Notes under the pieces: model-generated
Seen by the model: the letters and a program-made list of their open reading frames with translations, nothing else
What the model was told of the DNA's origin: nothing
The model's database searches: none
Part shown: piece after piece, positions 5,429 through 48,673 of the stretch
Position numbering within the stretch: position 1 is the stretch's first letter
How the letters are laid out: every line of letters starts with the position of its first letter
Assembly: GCF_010731655.1 (NCBI RefSeq)
Contig: NZ_AP022619.1
Coordinates: 310,001 to 374,000, forward strand
Length of the DNA stretch: 64,000 nucleotides
Source: Mycobacterium paraseoulense
GTDB lineage: Bacteria; Actinomycetota; Actinomycetes; Mycobacteriales; Mycobacteriaceae
Reading direction: 5' to 3'
Made by a program: the position numbers and the translations under genes

Positions 5429-5659
5429 GTGAGCATCAACCCATTCGACGACGACAACGGCAGCTTTTTCGTCTTGGTGAACGACGAGGAGCAACACAGC
5501 CTGTGGCCGGCCTTCGCCGATGTTCCAGCCGGCTGGCGAGTGGTGTACGGCGAGACCGACCGCGCTGCGTGCTTGGAGTACATCGAACAGAACTGGCCCG
5601 ACATTCGGCCAAAGAGTCTGCGCGACAAGCTCGCAACGGGCCGGGGTTTTGACCAGTAA
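5429..5659 (+). CDS. mbtH: MbtH-like protein, NRPS adenylation activator
   Basis: A 76-residue MbtH-like protein that binds NRPS adenylation domains and is needed for their folding or activity. The family signature is complete: [28 protein letters not shown], and then [14 protein letters not shown]. The GTG at 5429 is chosen because it has GGAG four bases upstream and gives the standard family length; the upstream in-frame ATG adds unrelated residues. It is the first gene of the mbtH-mps1-mps2 operon and ends 40 bp before mps1. Because the second mbtH copy (near 23.8 kb) is destroyed, this is the only MbtH visible in the window for eleven adenylation domains. Its use by the giant NRPS is an inference. 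Confidence 0.95.
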
Positions 5660-5699
5660 AGAGTCGGGGTATGGGGCGGGTGGAGGTTTGGGGGAGTCG

Positions 5700-23974: not shown

Positions 23975-23995
23975 GCCCTATGGTTGGGAAGTTGG

Positions 23996-26900
23996 ATGGA
24001 GCTTGGTGACCGGGCACTTCCGCTTACTCGCGGACAACTAGACATCTGGCTGGCCCACGAGACGGGCCACTCCGGCACGGAATGGCAGATCGGACTCTTC
24101 GTCACGATCGACGGCAGGGTTGAACGTGATGCCCTGAAGTGGGCGATCCGCCAGGCCATCGAAGAAGCCGAACCCACCCGGGCCTCTTTCGTCGAGGCGG
24201 ATGGCCAGGTCTTCCAACGGGCGGTCGACTATCCGGACGTCGAACTGGCCTTCCATGACCTGACCGCATCGCGCGACGCCGTCGACGAAGCCAGGCGGAT
24301 GGCGCTGTCGATCCAGCGAACGCCCATGCCGCTCTCGGGCCCGCTGTTCCGATTCGCCCTTTTCCAGACCCGTGCCGACGAATTCCACCTGTTCGCCTGC
24401 TGCCACCACATCGTCATCGACGGAACCGGTGTCGCGCTCGTCGGGCACCGCATCGCCTCCATCTACTCGGCCATCGTCTCCGCCGCCCCCATCCCGCCGG
24501 CCGTCTTCGGCTCACTGCGGGATCTGGTCGACTGCGAGGCGAAGTACGAAGGGTCCGGCGACTACCGCAACGACGAGGCCTACTGGGCTCAGCACCTCCC
24601 CGCGGACGACGCCGGCCCACATCGTGGGCCGCCCACCGGGGAACGGGATCCGTGGCCGTCCGCGCCGGTCGCGTTGGACTCGGGCATCCTGCGCCGGGTC
24701 AACAAGGTGTCTGAGGTGTGGGGCGTGTCCCAAACGTCGGTCATCACCGCCGCATGCGCGTTGTTGGTGCGCGGGTGGGGCGGACACGGCTCGGAGGTGG
24801 TCCTCGACTTCCCGGTCAACAGGCGCGTGCTTCCCGAGTCGAAAACCCTCCCCGGCATGGTGGCCGGCGTGGTGCCGCTGGTGTTGCGCGTCGCGCCACA
24901 GCTCAGCGTCGCCGAGTTCTGCCGACAGGTCGACACACGTATTCGGGAATCCGTTGAGCACCAACGGTTTCCGGTGCAAGCGCTGGAGCGCAAAGCCCGT
25001 GGGCCGGCGGGGCCGGCCGAGCGGGTGAGCGTCAATTTCATCCCGTCCGCATTTACCTTGCCGTTCGGCGGTGTCACCGCCTCCGCGTCGTACACCAACT
25101 CCGGCCAGGCGAGTGGCTTCGGTTTGATCTTTTCCACCGATGGTGACCGGCTTTTCCTCAGCACGGCGGGCGCGTGGGGGCCGTTTTCCCGCCTCGACGT
25201 CGCCCAGTTGGCGGAAAGCTTGCAGCGCGTGCTGGTGGCGTTGACGGCGGACACGACGAGGCGGTTGCTGACCATCGATGTGCTCGACGAGTCCGAGCAT
25301 GATCGGCTGGCCGCCTTGGGCAAGCGGGACGGGTTGGGCCGGCCCGTGGTTTCCGGGGCGTCGATTCCGGAGTTGTTTGCGGTTCAGGCGGGTCGCGCGC
25401 CCGGGGCCGCGGCGGTGTCGTGCGGGGCGCGGTCGTGGTCGTATCGCGAGGTCGATGAGGCGTCGAACCGGTTGGCGCGCCGGCTCATTGACAGTGGTGT
25501 GGGCCGGGGGGCGTGCGTAGGACTGGTGGTGGAGCGCTCCGGGGAGGCCGTGATTGCGGTCCTGGGGGTACTGAAGGCGGGGGCGGCGTACGTGCCGATC
25601 GATCCCGGGTCGCCGGTGCGGCGGGTGGAGTTCATGCTCGCCGACGCCGCGCCGGTGGTGGTGATCGTTTCAGCCGGGTTACGGTCGCTGTTGGGCGGGT
25701 TTTCCGGGCCGGTGATCGACCTTGACGATCCGGCGATCGAGGAGCAGTCGTGTGCCGCGGTGGTGGGGCCGGGCGCCGATGACGTGGCGCACGTGATCTA
25801 CACGTCGGGTACGACGGGGCTCCCCAAGGGCGTGGCGGTCACTCATCGCAACGTCACGCAATTGTTCGAGGCGTTGGCCGGTGATGGGCTGCTGGCGACG
25901 GGACACGTGTGGTCGCAGTGCCATTCGTTGGCTTTCGACTTTTCGGTGTGGGAGATCTGGGGGGCGCTGTTGCACGGGGGGCACCTGGTGGTGGTGCCCG
26001 ATGCGGTGGTCCGGTGCGCGGACGACCTGCAGGCGTTGGTGATTGGCGAGCGGGTGTCCGTGTTGACGCAGACGCCGTCCGCGGCGGGAGCGTTGTCGCC
26101 GCAGGGGGTGGAGGCGGCGTTGGTGGTGGGGGCCGAAGCGTGCCCGGCGGCGGTGGTGGACCGGTGGGCGCCGGGGCGAGTCATGGTCAATGTGTATGGG
26201 CCCACGGAGACCACGATGTGGGCGGCCAAGAGCGCACCCTTGGTGGCGGGTTCGGGGGCGCCGGCGATCGGGGCGCCCGTGGCGGGCGCGGCGTTCTTCG
26301 TGCTGGACAGCTGGTTGCGCCCGGTGCCGGCCGGCGTGGTCGGCGAGCTGTATGTGGCCGGAGCCGGGGTCGGTGTGGGCTACGTGGGCCGGGCGGGGTT
26401 GACCGGGTCGCGGTTTGTGGCGTGTCCATTTGGCGGGGTGGGGACGCGGATGTATCGGACGGGGGATTTGGTGTGGTGGGGCTCCGATGGGCAGCTCCGA
26501 TATGTGGGACGGACCGACGAACAGGTCAAAGTCCGCGGGTACCGCATCGAGTTGGGGGAAATCCACACGGCGCTAACAGCTTTGGAGGGCGTCGAACAGG
26601 TGGCGGTGATCGCCCGGGAGGACCGCCCCGGCGACCGGCGGCTGGTCGCCTACCTCACCGGCGGCGCCGAACCGACCGTGGTGCGCGCCGCGCTGGCCGA
26701 GCGGCTCCCGGACTACATGATCCCCGCCGCGATCGTCCCGTTGGCATCCCTGCCCCTTACCCTCAACGGCAAGCTCGACACCCACGCCCTACCCCCACCC
26801 GAATACACCGACACCGATCGCTACCGCGCCCCGGCCACCCTCACCGAAGAGATCCTCGCCGGGATCTACGCAAAGGTTCTTGGCCTTGGCAGGGTCGGGG

Positions 26901-29900
26901 CCGACGACTCCTTCTTCGATCTGGGCGGGGATTCGCTGTCGGCCATGCGTCTGGTCGCCGCGATCAATGCCAGCCTCGATGCCAACCTTTCGGTGCGGGC
27001 CTTGTTCGAGACACCGACGATTCGCCGGCTGGCGCCCCGCCTGCACGAGGGGGCGGGCTGGTTGCCGCGGGTGGAGGCCGGTGTGCGCCCCGGGGTGGTG
27101 CCGTTGTCGTTCGCCCAGTCGCGGTTGTGGTTCCTCGATCAATTGCACGGGTCGTCGCCGGTGCACAACATGGCGGTGGCGCTGCGCTTGCGCGGACGCC
27201 TGGATGCCGACGTGCTCGGGATGGCGCTGGCCGACGTGGTGGCGCGGCATGAAAGCCTGCGCACCGTCTTCGTCGCGCCCGACGGCATCCCGCGGCAAGT
27301 GGTCGTCCCCGTGGGGCAATTCGATTTCGGGTGGCAAGTCGTGGATGCCAGTGGGTGGCCGGCCGACCGGCTGGCCGAGGCCGTCGAGGGGGCTGCGCGT
27401 TACTCGTTTGATTTGGCGGTTGAGATTCCGTTGCGGGCAAGGCTCTTTCGGGTCGGCGAGCGTGAGCATGTGTTGGTGGCGGTGGCTCATCATATTGCTG
27501 CCGATGGGTGGTCGATTACGCCGTTGGTGCGTGATCTAGGCGTGGCGTATGCCAGCCGGTGTGCCGGTGAGGCGCCGGGGTGGGCTGAATTGCCGGTCCA
27601 GTACGTCGATTACACGTTGTGGCAACGCGCCCAGTTCGGCGACCTCGATGACCCGCATAGCGCGATCACCGCGCAGCTGACGTATTGGCTGGATGCGCTG
27701 GCGGGGATGCCGGAGCGCCTGGAGTTGCCGACGGACCGGCCGTATCCGGTGGTGGCCGATTACCAGGGTGCGCGGGTGGCGGTGGAGTGGCCCGCGGAGT
27801 TGCAACAACGAGTGAGTGAGGTGGCCGGTGAGCATAATGCGACCAGTTTCATGGTGGTGCAGTCCGCGTTGGCGGTCTTATTGGCCAAGCTGGGAGCGAC
27901 TTCAGATGTGGCGGTGGGTTTTCCGATCGCCGGGCGTCGTGATCCCGCGCTTGATGAGCTGGTCGGATTCTTCGTCAACACGTTGGTATTGCGCACCGAT
28001 TTGGGTGGAAATCCGACCGTGGCTGAGGTCTTCGCCCAGGTCCGCCAGCGCAGCCTGGCCGCCTACGAACACCAAGACCTGCCCTTCGAAGTCCTCGTCG
28101 AACGGCTGCACCCGACCCGCAGCCTCACCCACCACCCCCTGATCCAGGTCGTCCTCGCCTGGCAGAACTTGCCCTGGCAGCACAGCGGCCCCGCCGCCGG
28201 GCTGACGTTGGGAGACGTGCAAGCCAGCCCGGTGCCGTTGGATACCCAAGTCGCCCGGATGGATTTGGTGTTCTCGCTCGCTGAGCGGTGGACCGAGGAT
28301 GGTCGGCCGGCGGGGATCGGTGGGGCGGTGGAGTTTCGTACCGATGTGTTCAACACCGCCCGGGTGGAGGGGTTGGTCGAGCAGTTGCGTCGGGTGTTGG
28401 TGGCGATGACCGGTGATCCGGCGCGGTTGTTGTCGTCGATTGAGGTGCTCGATGACGGTGAGCGTGCCCGTCTTGGGGTGGTTGGTAATCGGGCGGTGTT
28501 GGGTGGGCCGGTGCCGGTGGGGGTGTCGATTCCGGAGTTGTTCGCCGCTCAGGTGGTTCGCGACGCCGAGGCGGTGGCGATCAGCTTCGGGGAGCGTTCG
28601 TGGACGTATGGGGAGGTCGATGAGTCGTCGAATCGGTTGGCGCGCCTGCTCGTTGAGTACGGTGCCGGTCCGGGGGAGTGTGTGGCGCTGGTGGCCGAGC
28701 GCTGTGCCGAGGCGGTGGTGGCGATCCTGGCGGTGCTCAAGACCGGGGCGGCCTACCTGCCCGTCGATCCGGGCCTGCCCACGGCGCGAATCGACTTCAT
28801 GCTCGCCGACGCCGCCCCGATCGCCGCCGTCACCGCCGCGGACGTCCGGTCGCGGCTCGACGAAACCGACCTGGCCGTCATCGATATCGACGACCCCGCC
28901 GCCGAGACTCGACCCAGCGACGCGCTGCCCGCGCCGTCCCCCGAGGACATCGCCTACATCATCTACACGTCCGGCACGACCGGGGTTCCCAAGGGCGTGG
29001 CCGTAGCGCACCGCAACGTCACGGAACTGCTCGATTCCGTCAATGACGAGCTGGCGCTCGGGCGGGTCTGGTCGCAGTGCCACTCGTTGGCGTTCGACTT
29101 CTCGGTGTGGGAGATCTTCGGGTCGCTGCTGCGCGGTGCCCGGCTGGTGATCGTGCCCGACGTCGTCGTGCGCTCGCCAGAAGAACTGCACGCCATGCTG
29201 ATTCGCGAACAGGTCAGCGTGCTCAGCCAGACGCCCTCGGCGTTCTACGCGCTCGCGCCCGAGCTGGGCCGGCAGCTGAAGCTGCGGACCGTGGTCTTCG
29301 GCGGCGAGGCGCTGGAACCGCAGCGGCTGGGTAAGTGGTTGCGCAACCGGCCGGGGCTGCCGCGGCTGATCAACATGTATGGCATCACCGAGACCACGGT
29401 GCACGCCTCGTTCCGCAGGATCGTCGACGGGGACGTCGACAGCGGCGCCAGCCCCATCGGTGTGCCGTTGGCGCACCTGGGCTTCTTCGTGTTGGATGCG
29501 TGGCTTAATCCGGTGCCGGTGGGTGTGGTGGGTGAGTTGTATGTGGCCGGGCGTGGGGTGGCGTGTGGGTATGTGGGCCGATCGGGGTTGACGGCGTCGC
29601 GGTTTGTGGCGTGTCCGTTTGGTGGGGTCGGGTCGCGGATGTATCGCACGGGGGATTTGGTGCGTTGGGGTGCCGATGGGCAGCTGCGGTATGTGGGGCG
29701 GGCCGATGAGCAGGTCAAGGTTCGGGGGTATCGCATCGAGTTGGGCGAAGTCCGCACGGCGTTAACCGGTTTGGATGGCGTCACGCAGGCGGTGGTGGTC
29801 GTGCGTGAGGATCGCCCCGGCGAAAAGCGTTTGGTCGCTTATGTCACCGGGGCCGCCGACCCGGCCGCGATCCGCGCGCGGTTGGCCGATCGGTTGCCCC

Positions 29901-32900
29901 CCTACATGGTCCCGGCCGCGGTCGTCGCGCTCGAGGAACTGCCGCTGACCATCAACGGCAAACTCGACACCCGCGCCCTGCCCCCACCCGACTACCAAGA
30001 AGGTGGCGAATACCGGCCCCCGGCCACCCCGGTCGAGGAAATCCTCTCCGACATCTACGCCCGGGTGCTGGGGCTGGAGCGCGTCGGGGCCGAGGAATCG
30101 TTCTTCGACCTCGGCGGGGACTCGTTGTCGGCCATGCGTTTGGTGGCTGCGATCACTACCGGCTTGGACGCCCACCTCGAAGTGCGAACCCTGTTCGAGG
30201 CGCCCACCATTCGCCAGTTGGCGCCGCGGCTCAGGGCGGGTGGGGGCCGGCCCGCCCGGGTGGTGCCCGGGGTGCGGCCGGCGGTGGTGCCGTTGTCATT
30301 CGCTCAGAACCGGTTGTGGTTCACCGATCAATTGCAGGGGCCGTCACCGGTTTACAACATGGCCGCGGCGATGCAGCTCGACGGGCGCCTGGATGTCGAG
30401 GCGCTCGGGGCGGCGCTCGGCGATGTGGTGGCCCGACACGAAAGCCTGCGCACGGTGTTCGCCGCACCCGAGGGAACCCCGAAGCAGGTGGTCATCCCCG
30501 CCGAGCGCGCCGACTTCGGTTGGCGGGTGGTGGACGCCAGCGCGTGGCCGGCGGGCCGTCTCGACGCGGCCGTCGAGGCCGCGGCGCGCCACACATTCGA
30601 TCTGGCCACCGAAGTCCCCTTGCGCGCCCAGCTTTTCAGGGTCGGACCCGACCGGCACGTACTGGTGGCCGCCGTCCACCACATCGCCGCCGATGGCTCC
30701 TCGCTGGCCCCGCTGGTGCGCGATCTCGGGACGGCGTACGCCAGCCGGTGTTCGGGTGAAGCGCCGGCGTGGGCGCCGCTGCCGGTGCAGTACATCGATT
30801 ACACGCTGTGGCAGCGGGCCAGCCTGGGTGAACTCGACGACCCGGACAGCCCCGTCGGCGGCCAGCTGCGCTACTGGCAACAGGCCTTGGCCGAGCTGCC
30901 CGGGCATCTTCGGCTACCGACCGACAGGCCCTACCCTCCGGTGGCCGACTATCGCGGGTCCAGCGTGGCCGTGGAGTGGCCGGCGGAGTTGCAGCAACGG
31001 GTGCGCGAGACTGCCCGCGAGCACAATGCGACGAGCTTCATGGTGGTCCAAGCCGCCCTGGCGGTGCTGCTGGCCAAAGTCAGTGCGACCGCGGATGTGG
31101 CGGTGGGCTTTCCGATCTCCGGCCGGCGCGATCCGGCGCTCGACGACCTGGTGGGCCTCTTCGTCAACACCTTGGTGCTCCGCGTCGATCTGACCGGAAA
31201 CCCCACTCTCGCAGAGGTATTGGCGCAGGTGCGGCAGCGCAGCCTCGCCGCCTACGAGCACCAGGACGTGCCGTTCGAGGTCCTGGTGGAACGACTCAAC
31301 CCCACCCGCAGCCTCACTCACCATCCGCTGGTGCAGGTCATGTTGACCTGGCAGAACGACAACCCGGCCGAACTGAGCCTGGGCGATCTGCGCGTGACTG
31401 CACTGCCCCTGCACACGCGCACGGCCCGCACGGATCTGGTGTTCTCGCTGGCCGAACGCTGGACCGACGACGACCAGCCCGCCGGCATCGGTGGGGCGGT
31501 GGAATTCCGCACCGACGTTTTCGACGCCGGCACCGTCGAGGCGTTGGTCGAGCGGCTGCGCCGCGTGTTGGTTTCGTTGACGACCGACACGGCCCGGCCC
31601 CTGTCTGCCGTTGACGTGCTCGACGAGCCCGAGCATGCCCGCCTGCGTGCCCTCGGCAACCAACACGAGCTCAGTCGGCCCGCACCGCCGGGGGTGTCGA
31701 TTCCGGCGTTGTTTGCCGTTCAGGTGGGGCGTGCGCCTGGGGCGGTGGCGGTCACCTGTGGGGGTCGGTCGGTGTCGTACGGCGAGTTGGATGAGGCGTC
31801 GAGTCGGGTGGCGCACTGGTTGATCGGTGTGGGTGCGGGTCCGGGTTGCGCTGTGGGGGTGATGTTTACGCGCTCGGTTGAGGCGATTGTGGCGATTGTG
31901 GGGGTGCTCAAGTCGGGGGCGGCGTATGTGCCGATCGATGCGGGGTTGCCGGCGGCGCGGGTGGAGTTCATGCTGGCTGACACCGCGCCGGTGGCGGTGG
32001 TGAGCACCGGCGCGTTGGTCGAGAAGCTGGCCGGGTATGGCCTGCCGGTGTTGGATGTGGCCGATCCGGTGTTGCAGCGCCAGCCGGTGAGCGCGCCGCC
32101 GCCGCCGGGCGCGGATGAGGTGGCGCACATCATTTACACCTCGGGGACGACCGGGGTGCCCAAGGCGGTGGCGGTGAGCCACGCCAATGTGACGCGGTTG
32201 TTCGACGCGGCGGCGGTGGGGGTGGCGTTGACGCGCGCGCAGGTGTGGAGCCAGTTCCATTCGTATGCCTTTGACTTTTCGGTGTGGGAGATCTGGGGGG
32301 CGTTGCTGCATGGGGGGCGGCTGGTGGTGGTGCCCGAGGCGGTGGCGCGTTCGCCCGAGGACTTCCACGCGTTGTTGGTTGCTGAGCGGGTGACGGTGTT
32401 GAGTCAGACCCCGGCGGCGGTGCGGATGCTCTCGCCGCAGGGTTTGCAGGGGATGGCCTTGGTGATCGGGGCCGAGCCGGTGCCCGCGGAGGTGGTGGAT
32501 CGCTGGGCGCCGGGGCGGGTGATGGTCAACGTCTACGGGCCGACCGAGACCACGATCTTGGCTTCGGCCAGCGCGCCGTTGGTGGCCAGGTCGGGGGCGC
32601 CGGCGATTGGGTCGGCGGTACCCGGGGCGGGGTTGTTCGTGCTGGATGGCTGGTTGCGGCCGGTGCCGGTCGGGGTGGTCGGGGAGTTGTATGTCGCCGG
32701 GCGCGGGGTCGGGCTGGGCTATCTGGGTCGGGCGGGGTTGACCGCGTCGCGGTTCGTGGCGTGCCCGTTCGGCGGGCCCGGGCAGCGGATGTATCGCACC
32801 GGGGACCTGGTGTGCTGGGGCCCCGACGGCCAGTTGCGGTATGTGGGGCGCGCCGATGAGCAGGTCAAGATCCGCGGGTACCGCATCGAGGTCGGCGAGA

Positions 32901-35900
32901 TCCGCGCGGCGCTGGCCGGCCTGGATGGGGTCGAGCAGGCCGTGGTGATCGTGCGCGAGGACCGCCCCGGCGACAAGCGCCTGGTCGGCTACCTCACCGG
33001 CACCGCCGAACCGACCGCGCTGCGCGCCGCGCTGGCCCAGCGCCTACCCGGCTACATGATCCCGGCCGCCCTGGTCACCCTCGCCGACCTGCCCACCACC
33101 CTCAACGGCAAACTCGACACCCGCGCCCTACCCCCACCCGAATACACCGACACCGGGTACCGCGCGCCGACCAACCCCACCGAAGAAATCGTGGCCGGCA
33201 TCTACGCACAAGTCCTGGGTCTCAAACGGGTCGGAGTGGACGACTCTTTCTTCGACATCGGCGGCGACTCGCTCTCGGCCATGCGCGTGATCGCGGCGAT
33301 CAATAGCGGCTTCGCTACCGCCCTTTCGGTGCGCGCCCTGTTCGAGGCGCCCACGGTGGCGCAGCTGGTACCCCGCATCGGCGGCGGCGGAGGCGGCCTC
33401 GCGCCGCTGGTGGCCGGCCCCCGGCCCGCGGTGATCCCGCTGTCGTTCGCCCAGAGCCGGTTGTGGTTCCTCGACCAATTGCAGGGCCCGTCACCGGTCT
33501 ACAACATGGCCGCAGCGCTGCGCCTGGTCGGGACGCTGGACGCCGACGCATTGCGCGCCGCGTTGGACGACGTGGTGACCCGCCACGAAACCCTGCGGAC
33601 GGTGTTCTCCGCACCCGAGGGAACCCCGCAGCAGGTCGTCCTGCCGCCCTCGCAAACCCGCGTCGGATGGGACGTGGTGAACACCGACGGATGGTCGGCG
33701 AGCCGACTGGAGGAAGCCGTCGAGGCCGCTGCGCGTTACTCGTTCGATTTGGCGGTTGAGCTTCCGTTGCGGGCGACGCTCTTCCGGGTGGGTGCGGGTG
33801 AGCATGTGTTGGTGGCGGTGGCTCATCATATTGCTGCCGATGGGTGGTCGATTACGCCGTTGGTGCGTGATCTAGGCGTGGCGTATGCCAGCCGGTGTGC
33901 CGGTGGGGCGCCGGGGTGGGCTGAATTGCCGGTCCAGTACGTCGATTACACGTTGTGGCAACGCGCGCAGTTCGGCGACCTCGATGACCCGCGTAGCGCG
34001 ATCGCCGCGCAGTTGGCGTATTGGCTGGATGCGTTGGCGGGGATGCCGGAGCGCCTGGAGTTGCCGACGGACCGGCCGTATCCGGTGGTGGCCGATTACC
34101 GGGGTGCGCGGGTGGCGGTGGAGTGGCCCGCGGAGTTGCAACAACGAGTGAGTGAGGTGGCCGCTGGGCATAATGCGACCAGTTTCATGGTGGTGCAGTC
34201 CGCGTTGGCGGTCTTATTGGCCAAGCTGGGAGCGACTTCGGATGTGGCGGTGGGTTTTCCGATCGCCGGGCGTCGTGATCCCGCGCTTGATGAGCTGGTC
34301 GGATTCTTCGTCAACACGTTGGTATTGCGCACCGATTTGTCGGGGAACCCCACGGTCGCCGAGGTATTGGATCAGGTGCGACAGCGCAGCCTGGCCGCCT
34401 ACGAACACCAGGACGTGCCCTTCGAGGTCCTCGTCGAACGGCTGCACCCGGCCCGCAGCCTCAGCCGCCACCCCCTGATCCAGGTCGTCCTCGCCTGGCA
34501 AAACGTCGACCTCGCCGAGCTGGCCCTCGGCGATCTGCAGGTCACCCCGCTGTCTACCGACACGCGAAGCGCCCGGATGGATTTGGTGTTCTCGCTCGCT
34601 GAGCGGTGGACCGAGGATGGTCGGCCGGCGGGGATCGGTGGGGCGGTGGAGTTTCGTACCGATGTGTTCAACACCGCCCGGGTGGAGGGGTTGGTCGAGC
34701 AGTTGCGTCGGGTGTTGGTGGCGATGACCGGTGATCCGGCGCGGCGGTTGTCGTCGATTGAGGTGCTCGATGACGTTGAGCGTGCCCGTCTTGGGGTGGT
34801 CGGTAATCGGGCGGTGTTGGGTGGGCCGGTGCCGGTGGGGGTGTCGATTCCGGAGTTGTTCGCCGCTCAGGTGGTTCGCGACGCCGAGGCGGTGGCGATC
34901 AGCTTCGGGGAGCGTTCGTGGACGTATGGGGAGGTCGATGAGTCGTCGAATCGGTTGGCGCGCCTGCTCGTTGAGTACGGTGCCGGTCCGGGGGAGTGTG
35001 TGGCGCTGGTGGCCGAGCGCTGTGCCGAGGCGGTGGTGGCGATCCTGGCGGTGCTCAAGACCGGGGCGGCCTACCTGCCCGTCGATCCGGGCCTGCCCAC
35101 GGCGCGAATCGACTTCATGCTCGCCGACGCCATACCGGTCGCCGCGATCGCCACCCCCGAACTGCGCCCACGGCTCGACGGAACCGACCTGGCCGTCATC
35201 GACTTCGACGACCCCGAAATCGCAATCCAACCCCGCAGCGCGCCACCGGTCCCCGACCCCGAGAACATTGCCTACATCATCTACACCTCGGGCACGACCG
35301 GGGTTCCCAAGGGCGTGGCGGTCACCCACCACAACGTCACCCAACTGCTCGAATCGGTGGACGGCGAGCTCGAACTCGGATACGTCTGGTCGCAGTGCCA
35401 CTCGTTGGCGTTCGACTTCTCGGTGTGGGAGATCTTCGGGTCGCTGCTGCGCGGTGCCCGGCTGGTGATCGTGCCCGACGCCGTGGTCCGTTCACCAGAA
35501 GAACTGCACGCCATGCTGATTCGCGAACAGGTCAGCGTGCTCAGCCACACCCCGTCCGCGGTGGCGGCGCTGTCGCCGCAGGGTCTGGAGTCGGTCGCGA
35601 CGCTGGTGATGGGCGGCGAACCCTGTCCACCCGAGGTGGTCGACCGATGGGCTACCGGACGCGTGATGGTCAACCAATACGGTCCGACCGAGACCACGAT
35701 GTACGCGGCGATGACCCCGCCGCTCGCCGCCGGAACCGGAGCGCCCCCGATCGGGTCCCCGGTGCCCGGCGCGGCGTTGGTCGTGTTGGATGCGTGGCTT
35801 AATCCGGTGCCGGTGGGTGTGGTTGGTGAGTTGTATGTGGCCGGGCGTGGGGTGGCGTGTGGGTATGTGGGCCGATCGGGGTTGACGGCGTCGCGGTTTG

Positions 35901-38900: not shown

Positions 38901-41900
38901 AACACGAGCACCTGGCGCTGCCCGAAATCCACCGCGCCACCGGCCACGACCAGTTGTTCGACACGTTGTTCGTGTACGAGAACTACCCGATCGACACCGC
39001 CGCGTTGGCGGGCGCTCACGAAGTCAGCGTCACCGACTTCAGCAGCCGCGAGTTCAACCACTATCCGCTCTCGGTGCAGGCCGTGCCGGGCGACGAGCTG
39101 GGCCTGCGTGTCGAATTCGACACCCACGTATTCGATGAGGCCGGCATCCGGGCGCTGACCGACCGGTTGCGCCGGGTGTTGGCGGCCATGGCCGCCGACC
39201 CCGCCCGCCCGCTGTCGACAATCGACGCCCTCGACGAGTCGGAACACGCCCACCTGGCCGCGTGGGGGAACCGGGCGGTACTGACCGAGCCGGTGACCGG
39301 GCCGTCGATTCCGGAGGCGTTCGCCACCCAGGTGGCCCGCACGCCGGAGGCGGTGGCGGTGACCGTCGAAGGCCGCTCCATGACGTATCGGGAGCTGGAC
39401 GAGGCCGCGGACCGCCTGGCTTACCTGCTGGCGTCACGCGGCGCCGGGCCCGGACACTTTGTGGGACTGTTGTTTTCGCGGTCCGCGGAGGCGATCGTCG
39501 CGATCCTGGCCGTGCTCAAGACGGGGGCGGCTTACCTGCCGATCGACCCCGGCCTGCCGGCGGCGCGGATGGGGTTCATGATCGCCGACGCCACCCCGAT
39601 CTTGGCCGTCACCACGGCGGGGCTTCGGCCGCTTCTGGACGGGTGCGACGTGCCGGTCATCGATGTCACCGATCCGGCGGTGCACACCCACCCCGTCATC
39701 GCGTTGACCGCACCGGCCCCCGACGACATCGCGTACCTGATCTACACGTCGGGCACCACGGGCGTCCCGAAGGGCGTCGCGGTCACCCACCACAACGTGA
39801 CTCAGCTGATGACGTCGCTGCATGCGCCCCTGCCCGCGGCCGGCGTCTGGTCGCAGTGCCACTCGCTGGCCTTCGACGTCTCGGTCCAGGAAATCTTCGG
39901 CGCGCTGCTCGGCGGGGGCCGGCTGGTCGTGGTGCCCGAGCCGGTGGTCCACGCACCGGAAGACCTGCGCGCCTTGCTGATTCGGGAAGGGGTCGGTGTC
40001 CTGAGCCAAACCCCGTCCGAGGCGGGCGCGCTGTCGCCGGAGGGCCTGGACGCGGTGGCGATGGTGATCGGCGGCGAAGCGTGCCCGCCCGAACTGGTCG
40101 ATCGGTGGGCGCCGGGCCGGGTGATGGTCAACGCCTACGGACCGACCGAGACCACCGTGGACGCGGCGATCAGCGCGCCGCTGACCGCGGGAGCCGGAGC
40201 GCCGATCGGGCCACCGGTGTCCGGCGCCGCGTTCATGGTGCTGGACAGGTGGTTACGGCCGGTGCCGGCCGGGGTGGTCGGGGAGTTGTATGTGGCCGGT
40301 CGCGGTGTCGCGTGCGGGTACCTGGGCAGGCCCGGCTTGACGGCGTCGCGGTTCGTGGCGTGCCCGTTCGGCGGGACCGCGACGCGCATGTACCGCACCG
40401 GCGACCTGGTGTGCTGGAACCCCGACGGGCAGCTGCGGTACGTGCGCCGCGCCGACGATCAGGTCAAGGTCCGCGGGCATCGCATCGAACTCGGCGAAAT
40501 TCGCGCCGCGCTCACCGGTTTCGAGGGCGTGGAACAGGCGGCGGTGATCGCCCGGGAGGGCCGGTTGGTCGGCTACGTGACGGGGGCCGTCGACCCCGAC
40601 GCGATACGCGCCGCGCTCGCCGAGCGGTTGCCGGCCTACATGGTGCCCGCCGCGGTGATCCGATTGGACGCGATCCCGTTGACGCTCAACGGCAAACTGG
40701 ACAAGCGGGCCCTACCGGCGCCGAAATACCACGACGCCGACTCCTACCGCGCCCCGGCGACCCCGGTCGAGGCGATCCTGGCCGAGATCTACGCCCGCGT
40801 GCTGGGATTGGCCCGGGTGGGGGTCGAGGAATCGTTCTTCGACCTGGGTGGCGATTCACTGGCGGCCATGCGCCTGGTCGCCGCCGTCAACGCGGGCCTG
40901 GACGCGCAGCTGTCAGTGCGTGCGGTGTTCGAGGCGCCCACCGTTCGCGGGCTCGCGCCGAACCTGGGTTCGGGCGGCGGTGGACCGACGCGCGTGGTGG
41001 CCGGCGCGCGACCCGAGACACTGCCGTTGTCCTTCGCACAGTCCCGGCTGTGGTTCATCGACCAGCTGCACGGGCCGTCGCCGGTCTACAACATGGCCGC
41101 GGCGCTGCGCCTGCGCGGGGACCTGGACACCGACGCGTTGGGCGCCGCGCTGGCCGATGTCGCCGCGCGCCACGAAAGCCTGCGCACGGTGTTCGTCGCC
41201 GCCGAGGGGACTCCCCAACAGGTCGTGCTGCCGCCGGAGCGCGCCGAGATTGACGCGGTCGACGCGACCGGATGGTCACCGGCCCGGTTGAGCGAGGCCG
41301 TCGAGGCCGTGGCCGCACATCCCTTTGACCTGGCCACCGAGATCCCGCTGCGGGCACGGCTTTTCAGGATCGCCCCGGACGATCATGTGCTGGTGGCCGT
41401 GGTGCACCACATCGCCGCCGACGGCTGGTCGCTCACCCCGCTGGTGCGCGATCTCGGCCTGGCCTACGCCAGCCGGTGCGCGGGCCGGCCGCCGGGATGG
41501 GCGCCGCTGCCGGTGCAATACGCCGACTACACCCTGTGGCAGCGGGCCCAGCTCGGCGATCTGGACGATCCGGACAGCCCGATCGCCGGCCAGCTGCGCT
41601 ACTGGCACGAGGCGCTGGCCGGGATGCCCGAGCGTCTCGACCTGCCCACCGACCGGCCCTACCCCGCGGTCGCCGATTACCGCGGGGCCAGTGTGGGCGT
41701 CGAGTGGCCGGCCGAGCTGCAGGACCGGGTGCGCGAGGTGGCGCGGGCGCACAACGCCACCAGTTTCATGGTGATCCAGGCCGCCCTGGCGGTGCTGCTC
41801 GCCAAGCTGGCCGCGAGTTCGGATGTGGCCGTAGGCTTTCCGATCGCGGGGCGCCGCGATCCCGCCCTCGACGAGGTGGTCGGCTTCTTCGTCAACACCC

Positions 41901-44900
41901 TGGTGTTGCGGGTCGAGCTGGCCGGGGATCCCACCGTCGCGGAGCTGCTGGACCAGGTGCGGCGGCGTAGCCTGGCCGCCTACGAGCACCAGGACGTGCC
42001 GTTCGAGGTGCTCGTGGAGCGGCTCAACCCCACCCGCAGCCTGGGGCACCACCCGCTGGTTCAGGTGATTCTGGCCTGGCAGAACAACGAGCCGGCCGAC
42101 CTGGTTCTGGGCGATCTGCAGGTGTCCCCGCTGCCGGTCGACACCCGAACGGCCCGCACCGATCTGTTGTTCTCGCTGGCCGAACGCTGGACCGGTGACG
42201 GCCGGCCCGCCGGGATTGCCGGGGCCGTCGAGTTCCGCACCGACGTGTTCGACACGGCCACCGTCGCAACGCTCGTCGCGCGGCTTCAACGGGTGGTGGC
42301 GGCCATGACCACCGACCCCGCCCGCCGCCTGTCGACGATCGATGTGCTCGACGAGGCAGAACATACCCGCCTCGAGGTGATCGGCAACCACGCCGCGCTG
42401 ACCCGGCCCGCCCCCCCGGCGAGGTCCATTTCGGACGCGTTCGCCGCGCAGGTGCACCGCGCGCCGGAGGCGGTGGCCATCAGCTGCGAGGGGCGCTGCC
42501 TGACGTACCGCGAGGTCGACGACTCGGCGGATCGCCTGGCGCACCGGCTCGTCGAGCACGGCGCGGGCCCGGGGGAGCGGGTCGCGCTGCTGATGCCCCG
42601 GTCGGCGGAGGCCGTCGTGGCGATCCTGGCGGTGCTCAAAACCGGGGCGGCCTACCTGCCGATCGATCCGGGGCTGCCGGCCGCGCGGATCGGCTTCGTG
42701 CTCACCGACGCCGCCCCGGCCGCCGTGATCACCGTCGAAGGCCTGCGGTCGAGGCTCGGCGGGTGCGGTGTACCCGTCATCGACGTCGACGACCCCGAGC
42801 TGCACGGCCGCCCCGGCGCGCCGCTACCGGCCCCGTCGCCCGAGGACATCGCATACGTGATCTACACGTCGGGCACGACCGGTACGCCCAAGGGCGTCGG
42901 CGTCACCCACCGAAACGTCATCCAGCTGCTGGAGGCGCTGGACGCCGAGATGGAGCTGGGCCAGGTGTGGACGCTGTGCCACTCCCTGGCCTTCGACTAC
43001 TCGGTGTGGGAGATGTTCGGCGCGCTGCTGCACGGGGGTCGTCTGGTGGTGGTGCCCGACGCGGTGGTCCGCTCCCCAGAAGACCTGCACGCCTTGCTGG
43101 TTCGTGAACAGGTCGACGTCCTGAGCCAGACACCGTCGGCCTTTTACGGGCTGCAAACCGCCGACGCGCTCGCACCCGATGTCGCTCAACGACTCAAGCT
43201 GCAGACGCTGGTGTTCGGTGGTGAAACGCTCGAGCCCCGGCGGCTGGGCACGTGGCTGGACAGCCACCCGGGACGCCCGCGCATCATCAACATGTACGGC
43301 ACCACCGAGACCACGGTGCACGCGTCGTTCCGCGAGATCGTCGACGGCGACGCCGACGGCGACGCCAGCCCCATCGGAATTCCCTTGGCGCACCTCGCCT
43401 TTTTCGTGCTGGATAACTGGTTGCGGCCGGTGCCGGCCGGTGTGGTGGGCGAGCTGTACGTCGCCGGCCGCGGGGTGGCGTGCGGGTATTTGGGCCGGCC
43501 CGGCCTCACGGCGTCGCGGTTCGTGCCATGCCCATCCGGAGCGCCGGGAGAACGCATGTATCGCACCGGGGATGTGGTGCGCTGGAGCGCAGACGGGCTG
43601 CGATACGTCGGCCGCGCCGACGAGCAGGTCAAGATCCGTGGCTATCGCATCGAGCCCGGCGAGATCCGCACGGCCCTCACCGAGTTGGCCGGTGTGCGGC
43701 AGGCCGCGGTGATCGTCCGCGAGGACCGTCCGGGGGACAGGCGGCTGGTGGGCTACGTGACCGGCGACGCCGACCCGGCCGTGCTCCGCGCCGCACTCGC
43801 CGAGCGGCTGCCCGCCTACATGGTGCCGGCCGCGATCGTCGCCCTGGAGGCAATCCCGTTGACGGTCAACGGCAAACTGGACACGCGCGCCCTGCCGGCG
43901 CCCGCCTACCGCGACACCGGCCGGTACCGCGCCCCCACGACCCCCACCGAAGAGATCCTGGCCGGCATCTACGCCCAGGTCCTGGGCGTCGACCGGGTCG
44001 GCGTCGACGACTCGTTCTTCGATCTGGGCGGCGATTCGCTCGCGGCCATGCGGCTGATCGCGGCCGTCAACGCCGGCCTGAACGTCCACCTCGGCGTGCG
44101 ATCACTGTTCGAGGCGCCCACGATTCACCGGTTGGCGCCGCGGCTCGGCAGCGACGGGGCGGGGCGCACACCGTTGGTGGCGATCGAGCGGCCCGCGGTG
44201 ATCCCGTTGTCCTTCGCCCAATCCCGGTTATGGTTCCTCGACCAGTTGCAGGGGCCGTCGGCGGTGTACAACATGGCGGCGGCGCTGCGGCTGGACGGGC
44301 GCCTGGACGCCGACGCGTTCGCTGCCGCGCTGGGCGACGTGGTGGCCCGCCACGAAAGCCTGCGCACGGTCTTCGTCGCGGCGGAGGGGACCCCGCAACA
44401 GCTCGTGCTCGCGCCCGAACAGGCCGACGTCCGGTGCGACCTGGTCGACGCCTCCGCCTGGTCGCCGGACCAGCTGGCGGAGGCCGTCGAGTCGGTGGCG
44501 CATTACGCGTTCGACCTGTGCAACGAGATCCCCTTGCGCGCATGGCTTTTCCGCACCGCGGTGGATGAACACGTGTTGGTGGCGGTGCTGCACCACATCG
44601 CCGCCGACGGGCTGTCGCTGACCCCGCTGGTGCGTGACCTCGGCGTGGCCTACGCCGGCCGGTGCGCGGGCGAGGCCCCGGCGTGGGCGCCGTTGCCGGT
44701 GCAGTACGCCGATTACGCGCTCTGGCAGCGCACGCATTTCGGGGACCCGGACGACCCGGACAGCCCCATCGCCGGACAGCTGCGATTCTGGGAACACACC
44801 CTGGCCGGAATGCCCGAGCGACTGGTGCTGCCCACCGATCGGCCCTACCCGCTGGTGGCCGATCACCGCGGGGCGACCGTCGGCGTGCGGTGGTCGGCCG

Positions 44901-47900
44901 AGTTGCAGCAGCGGGTGCGCGAACTGGCGCGCGCGCACAACGCGACCAGCTTCATGGTCGTCCAGGCCGCCCTGGCGGTGCTGCTGTCGACGCTGAGCGG
45001 AAGCAGCGAGGTCGCCGTCGGCTTCCCGATCGCCGGCCGCCGCGATCCACTGCTCGACGACGTGGTGGGCTTCTTCGTCAACACCCTGGTGCTGCGGACG
45101 GACCTGGGCGGGGACCCGACGGTCGCCCAGGTGCTGGAGCGGGTCCGCGGGCGCAGCCTGGCCGCCTACGAACACCAGGACGTCCCCTTCGAGGTGCTGG
45201 TGGAGCGGCTCCGCCCCGCCCGCAGCCTCAGCCATCATCCGCTGGTGCAGGTGATGTTGGCCTGGCAGAACAACGATCCCGGCGACGTGATCCTGGGCGA
45301 TCTGCACGTCACCCCGCTGCCGGTGGACAGCCACACCGCCCGCATGGACCTGACCTTCTCGCTGGCCGAACACTGGGGCGACGCCGGTGAACCCGCCGGG
45401 ATCGGCGGGCAGGTCGAGTTCCGCACCGACGTGTTCGACGCCCGCACCATCGAAGCGCTGATCAAACGCCTGCACCAGGTGCTGGTGGCCATCACCGCCG
45501 ACCCAGGCCGGCCGTTGTCGTCGATCGACGTGCTCGACGACGACGAGCGCGCCCGCCTCGACGACTGGGGTAACCGCGCGGTGTCAGACCGGCCGATGAC
45601 CTGGCCGTCGATCCTGGAAGTGTTCGACACGCAGGTGGACCGCGCCCCGGAAGCGGTGGCTGTCCGCTGCGGTGACCGCTCGATCACCTATCGGGAACTC
45701 AACCGCGCCGCGAACCGGTTGGCGCACTTGTTGATCGGCCACGGGGCCGGCCCGGGCGAATGCGTGGGTCTGCTCGTGGACCGCTCGGCGGAGGCGGTCG
45801 TGTCGATCCTGGCGGTGCTCAAGACCGGGGCGGCGTACCTGCCGATCGACCCCGGGCTGCCCGCGGCGCGGATCGCGTTCATCCTCACCGACGCCGCGCC
45901 CGTCGCGGCGCTGACGACCGCCGACCACCGATCACGGCTGGACGGCTTCCAAGGTGCGGTCGTCGATGTCGACGATCCCGCCCTCGACGCCCAGTCCGGC
46001 GGTCCGCCCCCGGCGATGCCGACGGCCGAGGACATCGCCTACATCACCTATACGTCCGGCACCACCGGGACGCCCAAAGGCGTTGCGGTCACTCACCGCA
46101 ACGTCACGCAGCTGTTCGCCCCCCTCGAGGCGCCCGTGCCGGTAGCCGGCGTGTGGTCGCAGAGCCATTCGCTGGTGTTCGACGTGTCGGTGTGGGAGAT
46201 CTTCGGCGCGCTGCTGCACGGCGGGCGGGTGCTGGTGGTGCCCGACGCGACGGCCCGTTCCCCGGAAGACCTGCATGCCCTGCTGAGCGCCGAAGACGTC
46301 AGCGTGCTGACCCAGACGCCGTCCGAGGCCGCGATGCTCGCGGTGGCGGGCTTGGACTCGGCCGCCCTGGTGGTCGCCGGCGAGGCGTGCCCGCAAGAGG
46401 TGGTGGACCGGTGGGCGCCCGGGCGGACCATGCTCAACGTCTACGGTCCGACCGAGACCACGATGTGCGTGGCGATCAGCGCGCCGCTGGTGCCCGAGTC
46501 GGGAACACCGCCGATCGGAGCACCGGTGCCGGGGGCGGCGCTGTTCGTGCTCGACGGGTGGCTGCGGCCGGTGCCCGCCGGGGTCATCGGCGAGCTGTAT
46601 GTGGCCGGAGCCGGCCTGACGTACGGGTACGTGCGCCGCGCGGGCCTGACCGCGTCGCGGTTCGTTGCCTGCCCGTTCGGTGCGCCCGGACAACGGATGT
46701 ATCGCACCGGGGATGTGGTGTGTTGGGGCCCGGACGGGCAACTGCGGTATCTGGGCCGCGCCGACGAACAGGTGAAGATCCGCGGGCACCGCGTCGAACT
46801 CGGCGAGGTCCGCGCCGCCCTGGCCGCCCTGGACGGCGTTGAGCAGGCGGCGGTGATCGCGCGCGAGGACCGGCCCGGCGACAGGCGGCTGGTGGGGTAC
46901 GTCACGGGCACCGCCGGCCCGGCCGCCCTGCGCGTGGCCCTGGGCGATCGGTTGCCCTCCTATATGGTCCCGGCGGCGGTGGTGACCGTGGACGCGCTGC
47001 CGTTGACGGTCAACGGCAAACTCGACACCCGGGCCTTGCCGGCACCGGAGTACAGCGACGTTGACCGCTACCGCCCGCCGGCCACGCCGGTCGAGGAGAC
47101 CCTGGCCGACATCTACGCCCAGGTGCTGGGGGTGGAGCGGGTCGGAGTGGAGGAGTCGTTCTTCGACCTGGGCGGTGACTCGCTGTCGGCGATGCGCCTG
47201 GTTGCCGCGATCCACACCACCCTCGGCATCCATCTGCCGGTGCGCGCCGTGTTCGACGCGCCGGCCGTGCGGAACTTGAGCCAGCAATTGGATTGGCAGA
47301 ATGGCGATTTCGAGTCCGCATCGCGGACCGGTCCCAGCTTCGCCTCGGTGCACGGCCGCGACGCCACCGAGGTGTATGCGAGTGATCTGACGTTGGACAA
47401 GTTCATCGATGCCGCGACGCTGAGCGCTGCGCCGTCGTTGCCGGGCCCGGGTCCGCAGGTGCGGACGGTCCTGTTGACCGGGGCGACGGGCTTTTTGGGG
47501 CGTTATCTTCTGCTGCAGTGGCTCGAGCAGCTGGAGCTGGTCGACGGCAAGTTGATCTGTCTGGTGCGGGCCGGCTCTGACGAGGAGGCGCGCCAGCGGC
47601 TGGAGAAGACCTTCGATAGCGGTGACCCGAAGTTGTTGCGGTACTTCCAGGAGCTGGCCGCCGACCACCTCGAGGTTGTCGCCGGTGACAAGGGCGCGGC
47701 GAACCTCGGCCTGGACGAGCCGACGTGGCAGCGGTTGGCCGACACCGTGGATCTGATCGTGGACTCGGCGGCTCTGGTCAACGGCGTGCTGCCCTACAGC
47801 GAGCTGTTCGGTCCGAACGTCGCCGGCACCGCCGAACTCATCAGGTTGGCGTTGACCACCAAACACAAGGCCTACTCGTACGTCTCGACCGCGAACGTCG

Positions 47901-48673
47901 GGGACGGGGTCGACGCGGAGGCGTTCACCGAGGACGCCGACATCCGGGTCATCAGCCCCATTCGCATCGTCGACGGCGGCTACGCCAACGGCTACGGCAA
48001 CAGCAAGTGGGCCGGCGAGGTGCTGCTGCGGGAGGCCCATGACCTGTGCGGGCTGCCGGTCTCGGTGTTCCGCTGCGACATGATCCTGTCCGACACCAGC
48101 TACTCGGGGCAGCTGAACCTGTCGGACATGTTCACCCGGATGGTGCTGAGCCTGGTGGCCACCGGCATCGCGCCGCGCTCGTTCTATCGACTCGACGCCG
48201 AGGGCGACCGGCAACGTGCGCACTTCGATGCGCTGCCGGTGGAGTTCGTGGCCGAGGCGATCACCACGCTGGGCACCCAGGTGGTGGAGGGGTTCGAGAC
48301 GTATCACGTGATGAACCCCCACGACGACGGCGTCGGCATCGACGAGTACGTCGACTGGCTGATCGAGGCCGGCTACCCGATCGAGCGGGTCGACGACTTC
48401 GGCGAGTGGCTGCAACGCTTCGAGGCCGCCCTGCGTGATCTCCCGGAGCGCCAGCGGCAACACTCGGTGCTGCCGCTGTTGCAGTTGCCGAGCACCCAGC
48501 AGGTCGAACCCGGTGAGCCCGGCCGCGGTTCGCTCGCCCCGACCGACCGGTTCCGTGCGGCGGTGCGGGAAGCCAAGATCGGCCCCGACAGCGACGATCC
48601 GGACATCCCGCACATCTCGCCGCCGGTGATCGTCAAGTACGTCACCGACCTGCGGCTGCTCGGGCTGCTGTAA
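23996..48673 (+). CDS. Giant seven-module lipopeptide NRPS with terminal reductase
   Basis: An 8,225-residue synthetase (24.7 kb, no internal stop) with the order C-A-T, C-A-T, C-A-T, C-A-T-E, C-A-T, C-A-T, C-A-T-R. The first C domain (HHIVIDG near residue 137) is closely related to the acyl-starter C of mps1, sharing [12 protein letters not shown] and [11 protein letters not shown], so the product is predicted to be N-acylated. C2, C3, C4, C6 and C7 are LCL-type ([18 protein letters not shown]). C5, after the epimerase, is DCL-type (HHIVMDG). All seven T domains keep GGDS, and all A domains keep NGKLD near the end. The terminal R domain has GATGFLG and YGNSK. The predicted product is an acyl-heptapeptide with a D residue at position 4, released as aldehyde or alcohol. 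ATG 23996 is preferred (GGGAAG upstream, alignment with mps1); a TTG at 23984 is possible. No such product is known to me, so no gene symbol is given. Confidence 0.93.
24017..27060 (+). other. Giant NRPS module 1: starter C - A - T
   Basis: The starter condensation domain spans about residues 9-425, the A domain about 452-935 and the T domain is near 976 (LGGDSL). The A-domain code reads as DFWTVGVMWK, which I cannot match confidently to a known substrate. No epimerase follows, unlike mps1 module 1, so an L residue is expected at position 1, acylated on its amino group. Confidence 0.8.
27392..28003 (+). repeat. Direct repeat tract 1, module 2 copy (C domain)
   Basis: Nearly identical to 33728-34339 (612 bp, offset 6,336 bp, only scattered substitutions). 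It covers the C-domain catalytic HHIAADG region of modules 2 and 4. The tract uses many T- and TTG-rich codons unlike its surroundings. Confidence 0.92.
28253..28813 (+). repeat. Direct repeat tract 2, module 2 copy (C-A junction)
   Basis: Nearly identical to 34571-35131 (561 bp, offset 6,318 bp). It covers the end of the C domain, the C-A linker and the N-terminal third of the A domain. The 18-bp change of offset relative to tract 1 reflects a six-residue insertion in the module 2 copy (around [10 protein letters not shown]). Confidence 0.92.
29487..29748 (+). repeat. Direct repeat tract 3, module 2 copy (A-domain C-terminal part)
   Basis: Nearly identical to 35781-36042 (262 bp, offset 6,294 bp), and the similarity continues patchily to about 29975. 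Between tracts 2 and 3 the two A domains diverge, including the whole segment that carries specificity residues 299-331. Confidence 0.9.
30270..33390 (+). other. Giant NRPS module 3: LCL C - A - T
   Basis: C spans about 2095-2530 (HHIAADGSS), A about 2569-3048, T near 3087 (IGGDSL). The code DFWSVGVILK has no confident match but shares its first positions with module 1. Core motif A3 reads [14 protein letters not shown], with Ala where the family has Gly after PK. Confidence 0.78.
33728..34339 (+). repeat. Direct repeat tract 1, module 4 copy (C domain)
   Basis: Partner of 27392-28003; see that entry. The reading frame and domain position are the same, within C4. Confidence 0.92.
34571..35131 (+). 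repeat. Direct repeat tract 2, module 4 copy (C-A junction)
   Basis: Partner of 28253-28813. It ends at the same codon (after ADA), where the two A domains begin to differ. Confidence 0.92.
35781..36042 (+). repeat. Direct repeat tract 3, module 4 copy (A-domain C-terminal part)
   Basis: Partner of 29487-29748. Similarity resumes at the codons for LDAWLNPVP, just after the specificity core. Confidence 0.9.
37960..40970 (+). other. Giant NRPS module 5: DCL C - A - T
   Basis: C spans about 4659-5070 ([19 protein letters not shown]), the type that accepts a D-configured upstream residue. A spans about 5102-5578 and T is near 5617. The code DVQSVGAVDK starts like proline codes (DVQ) but does not match further. 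A short deletion removes the usual DRPGDK segment in the A-domain C-terminal part ([10 protein letters not shown]). Confidence 0.78.
41010..44150 (+). other. Giant NRPS module 6: LCL C - A (Thr-like) - T
   Basis: C spans about 5675-6108, A about 6145-6638, T near 6678. The code DYWSVGMVHK differs from the threonine-type codes of mps1 A2 and module 2 only at the second position, so Thr or a close relative is likely. It contains the same [14 protein letters not shown] subtype core. Confidence 0.8.
44190..48673 (+). other. Giant NRPS module 7 and release: LCL C - A - T - R
   Basis: C spans about 6735-7172, A about 7205-7685, T near 7726, R about 7789-8225. The code DVWTVAVMCK is partly Phe-like (compare DAWTVAAVCK) but is not conclusive. 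The reductase has GATGFLG and YGNSK and is almost the same as that of mps2. In mps2 it yields alaninol, so a C-terminal amino alcohol is the natural prediction. Confidence 0.8.
47336..48673 (+). repeat. Reductase-domain repeat, copy 2 (in the giant NRPS)
   Basis: Partner of 22259-23587. It includes long runs of identical DNA, for example through the GATGFLG-encoding region, and ends at the stop codon. Confidence 0.9.

Follow-up and report, generated by a model that had tools for sequence, protein, structure and literature searches.

Within a 64,000-nucleotide stretch of the Mycobacterium paraseoulense genome (G000:C1:310001-374000 of a 6,085,955-base single contig; hereafter the window), one gene on the forward strand at 23996..48673 encodes a seven-module nonribosomal peptide synthetase (NRPS) of 8,225 amino acids, which we name N7. 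It sits directly after mps2, a glycopeptidolipid (GPL) synthetase gene, and before a gene of the nitronate monooxygenase family. Judging from its sequence, N7 is likely to work as an entire assembly line in its own right, with a lipopeptide other than GPL as its product. Positions below refer to the window, and genomes, protein records, and loci carry G, P, and L numbers, respectively.

Architecture of N7

The reading frame opens at ATG 23996 (TTG at 23984) and runs to 48673 with zero internal stops over 8,225 codons, as claimed in a preliminary description of this DNA. The domain order given there, C-A-T x3, C-A-T-E, C-A-T x2, C-A-T-R (C, condensation; A, adenylation; T, thiolation; E, epimerization; R, reductase), was reproduced by Pfam, by motifs, and by hidden Markov models (HMMs) built from the window's own domains; the domain HMM search that it had proposed returned all expected domains, with none missing. 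Motif and HMM parsing count 7 C, 7 A, 7 T, 1 E, and 1 R, and Pfam matches C, A, T, and NAD_binding_4 domains in the protein. Module 1 comprises an acyl-starter C domain with the motif HHIVIDG (C1; 24014..25234), placed by HMM parsing and its starter clade, and an A-T pair (25424..27040). C-A-T modules 2 (27095..30229), 3 (30284..33376), and 4 (33431..36523) follow. The E domain (36560..37798, HHLAVDG) precedes module 5 (37976..40963), whose C domain is of the D-C-L type; both were placed by HMM parsing and the domain tree. Modules 6 (41018..44143) and 7 (44198..47287) lead to the terminal thioester reductase domain (47408..48670), recognized by TIGR01746 at 330 bits (NCBIfam cut-off 213), by PF07993 at 213 bits, and by its identity to the mps2 reductase. 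All of these features lie on the forward strand; the modules were bounded by HMM parsing and read for specificity codes, with pocket regions also compared.

The motif HHxxxDG is kept in 8/8 C and E domains, GGDS in 7/7 T domains, and YTSGTTG, YRTGD, and NGKLD in 7/7 A domains; the module-3 A domain has PKA where PKG is expected. The R domain retains the cofactor and catalytic motifs TGATGFLG and YGNSK. Among the best 25 of 108 and 113 NCBIfam families, the product-named NRPS models AusA, MxcG, SolG, and EntF all score below cut-off on N7, and some single-enzyme models (e.g., DltA and menE) exceed it, an excess that we put down to summing over several A domains.

Predicted peptide core

Ten-letter specificity codes were read from alignments at what we take to be the positions of the GrsA scheme, with the final K assumed. 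The code book combined GL8P of M. abscessus (T-A-F-I-Y-L, codes from P0018), the lipopentapeptide L5P (codes from P0120), and GPL. The GL8P residues derive from a nuclear magnetic resonance (NMR) structure (PMC11978893), and L5P is given as D-Phe-MeVal-Ile-Phe-Ala (PMC8103206). We infer that P0018 and P0120 are the GL8P and L5P synthetases from host, module order, E positions, and the methyltransferase: P0018 is an M. abscessus record without the first C domain, and its order A-T-E, C-A-T, C-A-T-E, C-A-T, C-A-T, C-A-T-E fits MAB_4691c. Within this code book, the Ile code DFWTVGVMWK is identical in GL8P and L5P, and the Thr code DFWSVGMVHK is identical in GL8P and GPL. The Phe code DVWTV(V/A)(A/G)MCK occurs at three places, with GPL Phe instead using DFWTVAAVCK.

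Module 1 of N7 carries DFWTVGVMWK, the Ile code of GL8P and L5P at every position read, and module 2 carries DFWSVGMVHK, likewise the Thr code of GL8P and GPL at every position read. The pocket region of module 3 (DFWSVGVILK) is nearest to Ile domains (79% and 75%), and the relatives G364 and G246 hold the exact Ile code at residue 3. Module 6 (DYWSVGMVHK) is Thr-like at 9/10 positions, and module 7 (DVWTVAVMCK) agrees at 9/10 with the Phe-like DVWTVAGMCK of L5P residue 4. Together with module 4 (DFWSVGQMYK, followed by E) and module 5 (DVQSVGAVDK), these codes suggest the core acyl-Ile-Thr-(Ile-like)-D-X-Z-Thr-Phe-ol, where X and Z stand without a substrate call.

Several observations weigh against this assignment. 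A3 departs from the Ile code at 3/10 positions. The A4 and A5 codes are absent from the code book, their pocket regions being nearest to Phe (74%) and alaninol (74%), and visual comparison of the A5 code with Pro and Gln codes gave no clear winner. When the whole pocket region is considered, Ala (70%) and Phe (69%) both come ahead of Ile (68%) for A1, and the lead of Phe for A7 is a single point. The published GL8P prediction itself was wrong at 1/8 residues, where position 6 was predicted as Thr and proved to be Leu (PMC11978893). As a control, 15 labelled domains were compared by pocket region; 12 had a same-substrate partner, which was the nearest domain in 11/12 cases (alaninol counted as Ala), the failure being GPL residue 1 (Phe), nearest to alaninol at 74% vs Phe at 73%. 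We set the whole pocket region aside as a substrate predictor: it was right in 11/12 cases, yet did not separate Ala, Phe, and Ile for A1.

Occurrence of the family

With the first 601 residues of N7 as query, 45 loci were found in genome contigs, the 8 closest of which (77-84% identity) come from M. scrofulaceum (two), M. europaeum, M. parascrofulaceum, M. nebraskense, and three further Mycobacterium strains; this makes the host a slow grower from the same group. The family was delimited with the first 460 residues of M. avium P0011 at E <= 1e-205, a cut of our own choosing, by which 18/396 sampled Mycobacterium genomes carry an N7-type gene. N7's own C1 as query matches 160/248 genomes at E <= 1e-60, a number raised by matches to other acyl-starter C domains. 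In that search the lowest-ranking carrier has 72% identity (G118), and below it come shorter mps1-like genes at 69-67% (G243, G241, and G143), leaving a narrow gap. The GPL region of these last three genomes (L104-L109) was seen to hold an mps1-like gene, an mps2-like gene, and a second mps1-like gene. The codes of G241 and G143 differ from those of GPL (e.g., DIWCLGEMWK in the last mps2-like module), and these genes probably make a different lipopeptide.

The N7-type gene directly follows mps2 in 17/17 testable carriers, with adjacency in G237 resting on measured distances and locus L018 on the same contig; the 18th carrier, G393, has a 5.2-kb contig. The start of the gene lies next to mps2 in M. 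scrofulaceum DSM 43992, M. parascrofulaceum ATCC BAA-614, M. europaeum DSM 45397, and M. nebraskense DSM 44803, and among these four the reading extended to the gene's end in BAA-614. On the 3' side, the nitronate monooxygenase gene comes next and ileS after it in 8/8 genomes for which the 3' end and flank were available (own, G337, G364, G325, G270, G046, G100, and G246). The preliminary description had advised searching mycobacterial genomes for this domain order; the family search shows that N7 is not unique and that relatives with five to seven modules occupy the same site. A single E domain and an R end are common to 9/9 carriers read to the end, and the gene is one frame in the own genome, G100, G325, G046, G364, G118, G270, and G337. 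Seven modules in one frame are found in the own genome, G100 (M. parascrofulaceum), G325, G046, and G364; five modules in G118 and G270 (E after module 2) and in G337 (E after module 3); and six in the M. avium records P0011, P0015, and P0017 (E after module 3).

A pair of codes recurs throughout: DFWS(V/I)GQ(M/L)(Y/F)K with E, then DVQS(V/I)GAVDK, in 9/9 genomes with an N7-type C1 that were read through that part. The same pair is present in 17 further records or fragments taken as N7 family, which include M. intracellulare (P0130, 136 members; P0045), M. mantenii, M. colombiense, M. marseillense, and M. nebraskense. The family codes are absent from five other reductase-ended records that were coded (P0035, P0036, P0125, P0127, and P0128), which we did not count as family. 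The last-residue code is Phe-like in the scrofulaceum group and DFWTAAVIVK in the others read to the end.

Two forms of the gene differ by a discrete unit. G337, taken as M. avium by a C1 region 100% identical to that of P0011 over 460 residues, encodes 6,105 aa (from ATG) compared with 7,169 aa in P0011; apart from a single 1,064-residue difference, they agree at 99.4% identity. Its junction falls within, or on the border of, a 12-residue stretch, LTRPQHPPTSIP, in the C-A linker, so the unit present or absent is A-T-C. The difference may be a gain or a loss, and an assembly error in one record is possible.

Across four comparisons, the ratio of nonsynonymous to synonymous substitution rates (dN/dS) of N7 is 0.220 (G325), 0.223 (G100), 0.278 (G046), and 0.278 (G364), with values of 0.106-0.257 for mps1 and mps2. 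When the comparison with G325 is split into 17 bins of 500 codons, every bin has a dN far smaller than its dS. In all four pairs N7 shows less amino-acid identity than either mps1 or mps2; it therefore evolves faster than these neighbours, yet it is constrained and under purifying selection.

Domain relationships and the surrounding locus

A tree of 66 condensation-type domains, labelled by position and drawn from the own genome, the GL8P and L5P lines, G337, and G364, contains pure clades of starter (n=7, support 1.0), E (n=16, support 1.0), and D-C-L domains (n=16, support 0.999); the 26 L-C-L domains fall under a node that also takes in one other domain and has a weak support of 0.476. N7 C1 falls within the starter clade alongside C1 of mps1 and of the L5P-type line, whose products are N-acylated, in keeping with the acyl starter proposed in the preliminary description. 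The single D residue proposed there also holds up, with one E domain after module 4 and the next C domain in the D-C-L clade. The N7 E domain clusters with those of mps1 and mps2.

The likeness of the N7 reductase to that of mps2, another early claim, proved close: the two R domains of the own genome are 89% identical, vs 85% between N7 and its M. parascrofulaceum relative. N7 (48230-48429) and mps2 (23153-23352) have a 200-bp exact DNA tract in common. Together, the closer identity to mps2 and this tract point to recent gene conversion between the neighbouring reductases. A 330-bp exact repeat also links N7 modules 2 and 4 (28484-28813 and 34802-35131). GC content at third codon positions is 0.79-0.88 in approximately the first 4,000 codons (modules 1-4) and 0.89-0.92 from E to module 7 (the last bin, which ran past the gene end, was dropped), and both GC and AT skew shift near 36 kb. 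These two parts of N7 may have different histories.

On the 5' side, the window contains the synthetase genes mps1 (5520..15944, forward) and mps2 (15941..23587, forward), the latter ending in a reductase, both assigned by domain parsing. Upstream lie an MbtH-like protein (5429..5659, forward; PF03621), an MmpS-like membrane protein (4043..4669, reverse; PF05423), and the MmpL transporter of the GPL locus (1143..4043, reverse; PF03176), confirming that the GPL synthetases adjoin N7. Between 5429 and 5700, mps1 as listed (from ATG 5520) runs over the MbtH gene, and its real start is probably downstream, near 5700. The conserved right-hand neighbour of N7 is the nitronate monooxygenase-family gene (49418..50539, forward; PF03060, synteny). 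In the 20 kb upstream, 8/10 scanned frames match Pfam, with methyltransferases, glycosyltransferases, sugar epimerase/dehydratase-type proteins, and an ABC transporter; that these genes modify GPL, or the N7 product, is a guess. The stretch from 24000 to 36000 (modules 1-4, up to about E) has a GC skew of +0.06 to +0.16 and an AT skew of -0.14 to -0.20, unlike the rest of the window.

Comparison with known lipopeptide systems

N7 shares with the GPL synthetases mps1/mps2 (pstA/pstB) the locus, an acyl-starter C1, a reductase end, and the Thr code. The GPL line, however, uses two genes, four modules (Phe-aThr-Ala-alaninol), and three E domains, one after each of the first three modules, whereas N7 combines seven modules and one E in a single gene. 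The L5P type (P0120/P0077) has a C1 in the same clade, an identical Ile code, and a residue-4 Phe code matching A7 at 9/10 positions; unlike N7, it has five modules, E in module 1, an N-methyltransferase in module 2, a thioesterase (Pfam, P0120), and no R. The preliminary description had judged that neither GPL nor L5P fits N7, and these layouts agree. The GL8P synthetase of M. abscessus (MAB_4691c/4690c), encoded at a second GPL locus, is likewise a separate lipopeptide line besides GPL, with identical Thr and Ile codes, but comprises two genes and eight modules with E at 1, 3, 6, and 8, releases by thioesterase, and lies 600 kb from the GPL locus (PMC11978893); N7 does not conform to this layout either. 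Further counterparts are the M. avium five- and six-module lines (G337; P0011, P0015, and P0017), which have the same starter, D-X and Z codes, and R end, and, in G337, where the site was seen, the same position after mps2. They differ from N7 in having five or six modules and DFWTAAVIVK rather than a Phe-like last code. PstA of M. paratuberculosis (MAP1242), compared with N7 by description, is an NRPS with a 12-kb gene ascribed to GPL-type biosynthesis, and its mutants are altered in biofilm formation and colonisation (PMC8707695, PMC4158869).

The own genome holds other large NRPS lines. One, 588 kb into the contig (L088-L089, G000:C1:587813-618953), is L5P-like, with eight modules, three of them Phe-type, and an L5P-like start. 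Its codes read D-Phe, MeVal-like, Ile, Phe, D-Ala, DFWSVGVIFK, D-Ala, and Phe, and the frame is broken inside the module-4 A domain (open frames of 4,814 and 5,513 aa). A third line (L090-L091, G000:C1:3735947-3769122) has a second frame of 5,690 aa with two reductase domains, the internal one at residues 3354-3773 and followed by C-A-(insert)-T-R. This may be two genes that share an uninterrupted frame, or a case in which release unusually occurs inside the line.

Proposed pathway and alternatives

In the proposed pathway, C1 would join a fatty acyl chain to residue 1 (Ile), and the chain would grow by Thr, an Ile-like residue, a D-configured residue 4 epimerized by the E domain after module 4, residue 5, Thr, and a Phe-like residue 7. 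Using NAD(P)H, the R domain would then reduce the thioester and free the product as an aldehyde or, more likely by analogy with Mps2, as an alcohol, giving the expected core acyl-Ile-Thr-(Ile-like)-D-X-Z-Thr-phenylalaninol. Glycosylation of the Thr or terminal hydroxyls by GPL-locus glycosyltransferases and export by MmpL are guesses from location. No product for N7 was found in the literature searched, including by locus tag, with incomplete open-access coverage and without Data S1 of PMC11978893, a listing of predicted products for second GPL-like loci. The product, put forward in the preliminary description as undescribed, is so only as far as that literature goes. Lipopeptide synthetases beside GPL are already known, and second GPL-like loci vary between species according to a 2025 paper (PMC11978893).

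A first alternative concerns the form of release. Reduction by R domains of this family can end at the two-electron stage, the N7 motifs do not decide the matter, and aldehyde and alcohol are not distinguishable from the N7 sequence, which tempers the alcohol assignment. We nevertheless regard it as rather unlikely that the line yields an aldehyde, or a cyclic imine formed from one, given that the closest characterised relative, the Mps2 R domain (89% identical), serves a pathway ending in alaninol. Mps2 is credited with the amino-alcohol end of GPL (PMC1885439).

A second alternative is that N7 is decaying and makes nothing in this strain. The statement in the preliminary description that all motifs are intact holds for the C, E, T, R, and main A motifs, but is slightly overstated for motif A8 of the module-5 A domain, which reads RRADDQ vs the usual GRADEQ, with 5 residues absent just after it. 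Among module-5 counterparts in 12 relatives (a 13th row, P0016, was excluded as the wrong module), A8 begins RRAD in 3/12 (G325, P0002, and P0010), ARAD in 4/12 (G046, P0006, G337, and P0011), and GRAD in 5/12 (G100, G364, G118, G270, and P0045). Given this variation, the change seems to be of long standing and not a recent lesion. Frames are also broken in relatives: G246 has seven modules in the same order spread across four frames, and the relative in M. sp. 4858 (L019) occupies at least two frames, reflecting either sequencing errors or real breaks.

Genomes lacking the gene are further evidence to be set against function. Of the 396 sampled genomes, 30 have an mps2 of at least 81% identity (a gap to 76% follows), namely 18 carriers and 12 without an N7-type C1, and 9 of these 12 were checked for absence (G131, G048, and G059 were left out). 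At 9/9 empty sites, the distance from the end of mps2 to the nitronate monooxygenase gene is 0.70 to 3.03 kb, and at the thresholds used N7 C1, mps1 C1, and a second R gave no match between the two genes. Scanned with the whole N7 protein, 5/9 gaps (G282, G357, G289, G268, and G232) hold short N7-like A-domain pieces; G268 also holds an end piece like residues 1-40 and G232 one like residues 8185-8225. The gaps of G080, G036, G265, and G199 hold no N7 piece among the matches listed. A-domain pieces alone cannot prove their NRPS of origin; on account of the site and the two end pieces, we favour remnants of a decayed N7-type gene. The broken frames and the nine relatives without the gene show that N7 is dispensable, and the family seems to have been in the group for long, with repeated losses.

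In M. paraseoulense itself, we consider decay distinctly unlikely. Broken frames elsewhere, fragments only in five of the nine relatives and clean absence in four, and the altered A8 motif speak for it, but 8,225 codons stand open here, four relatives have intact seven-module frames, dN/dS is 0.22-0.28 in four comparisons, and dN lies well below dS in 17/17 bins. N7 is a real gene, and the intact frames, dN/dS, and domain set support a working line that is probably functional.

It is very unlikely that N7 acts in series with Mps1 and Mps2 to make a longer glycopeptidolipid. Its place beside mps2 in 17/17 testable genomes, the recent DNA shared by the two reductases, and the grouping of its E domain with those of mps1 and mps2 would suit such a role. 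Mps2, however, has its own reductase, and N7 has its own acyl-starter C domain and a second reductase; moreover, the mps1/mps2 codes are the usual GPL set in five other carriers coded (G046, G100, G118, G246, and G062). We rejected N7 as a GPL extension on account of its own starter and reductase.

Least likely of all is a known product, whether L5P, GL8P, or the Phe-containing lipopeptide of rough M. avium: Ile, Thr, and Phe codes are in common, but the L5P and GL8P lines, set apart by module number, E positions, methyltransferase, and release domain, were rejected on architecture, and the lipooctapeptide of the rough M. avium variant (Riviere et al. 1996, cited in PMC11978893) has eight residues, which does not fit the five- or six-module M. 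avium N7-type lines and better fits the 588-kb line of the own genome.

Implications

A separate lipopeptide line remains our preferred reading of N7. Beyond it, we tentatively suggest that N7-type genes might specify an unseen class of surface lipopeptides in the M. avium-scrofulaceum group, namely acyl-peptide alcohols varying in peptide length between species and between M. avium forms by whole A-T-C units naturally lost or gained at the C-A linker. Such products might be glycosylated by GPL enzymes and might serve as a polymorphic, lineage-specific antigen.

GPLs, and with them the related L5P and GL8P, matter for colony form, uptake by the host, or serodiagnosis. If the GPL locus holds a further lipopeptide line, two products may disappear together when the locus is deleted or when smooth strains are compared with rough ones. 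Through its conserved flanks, one site provides both natural carriers and natural non-carriers, and the M. avium forms separated by a single A-T-C unit would offer a clean natural experiment on the gain or loss of a residue in assembly lines.

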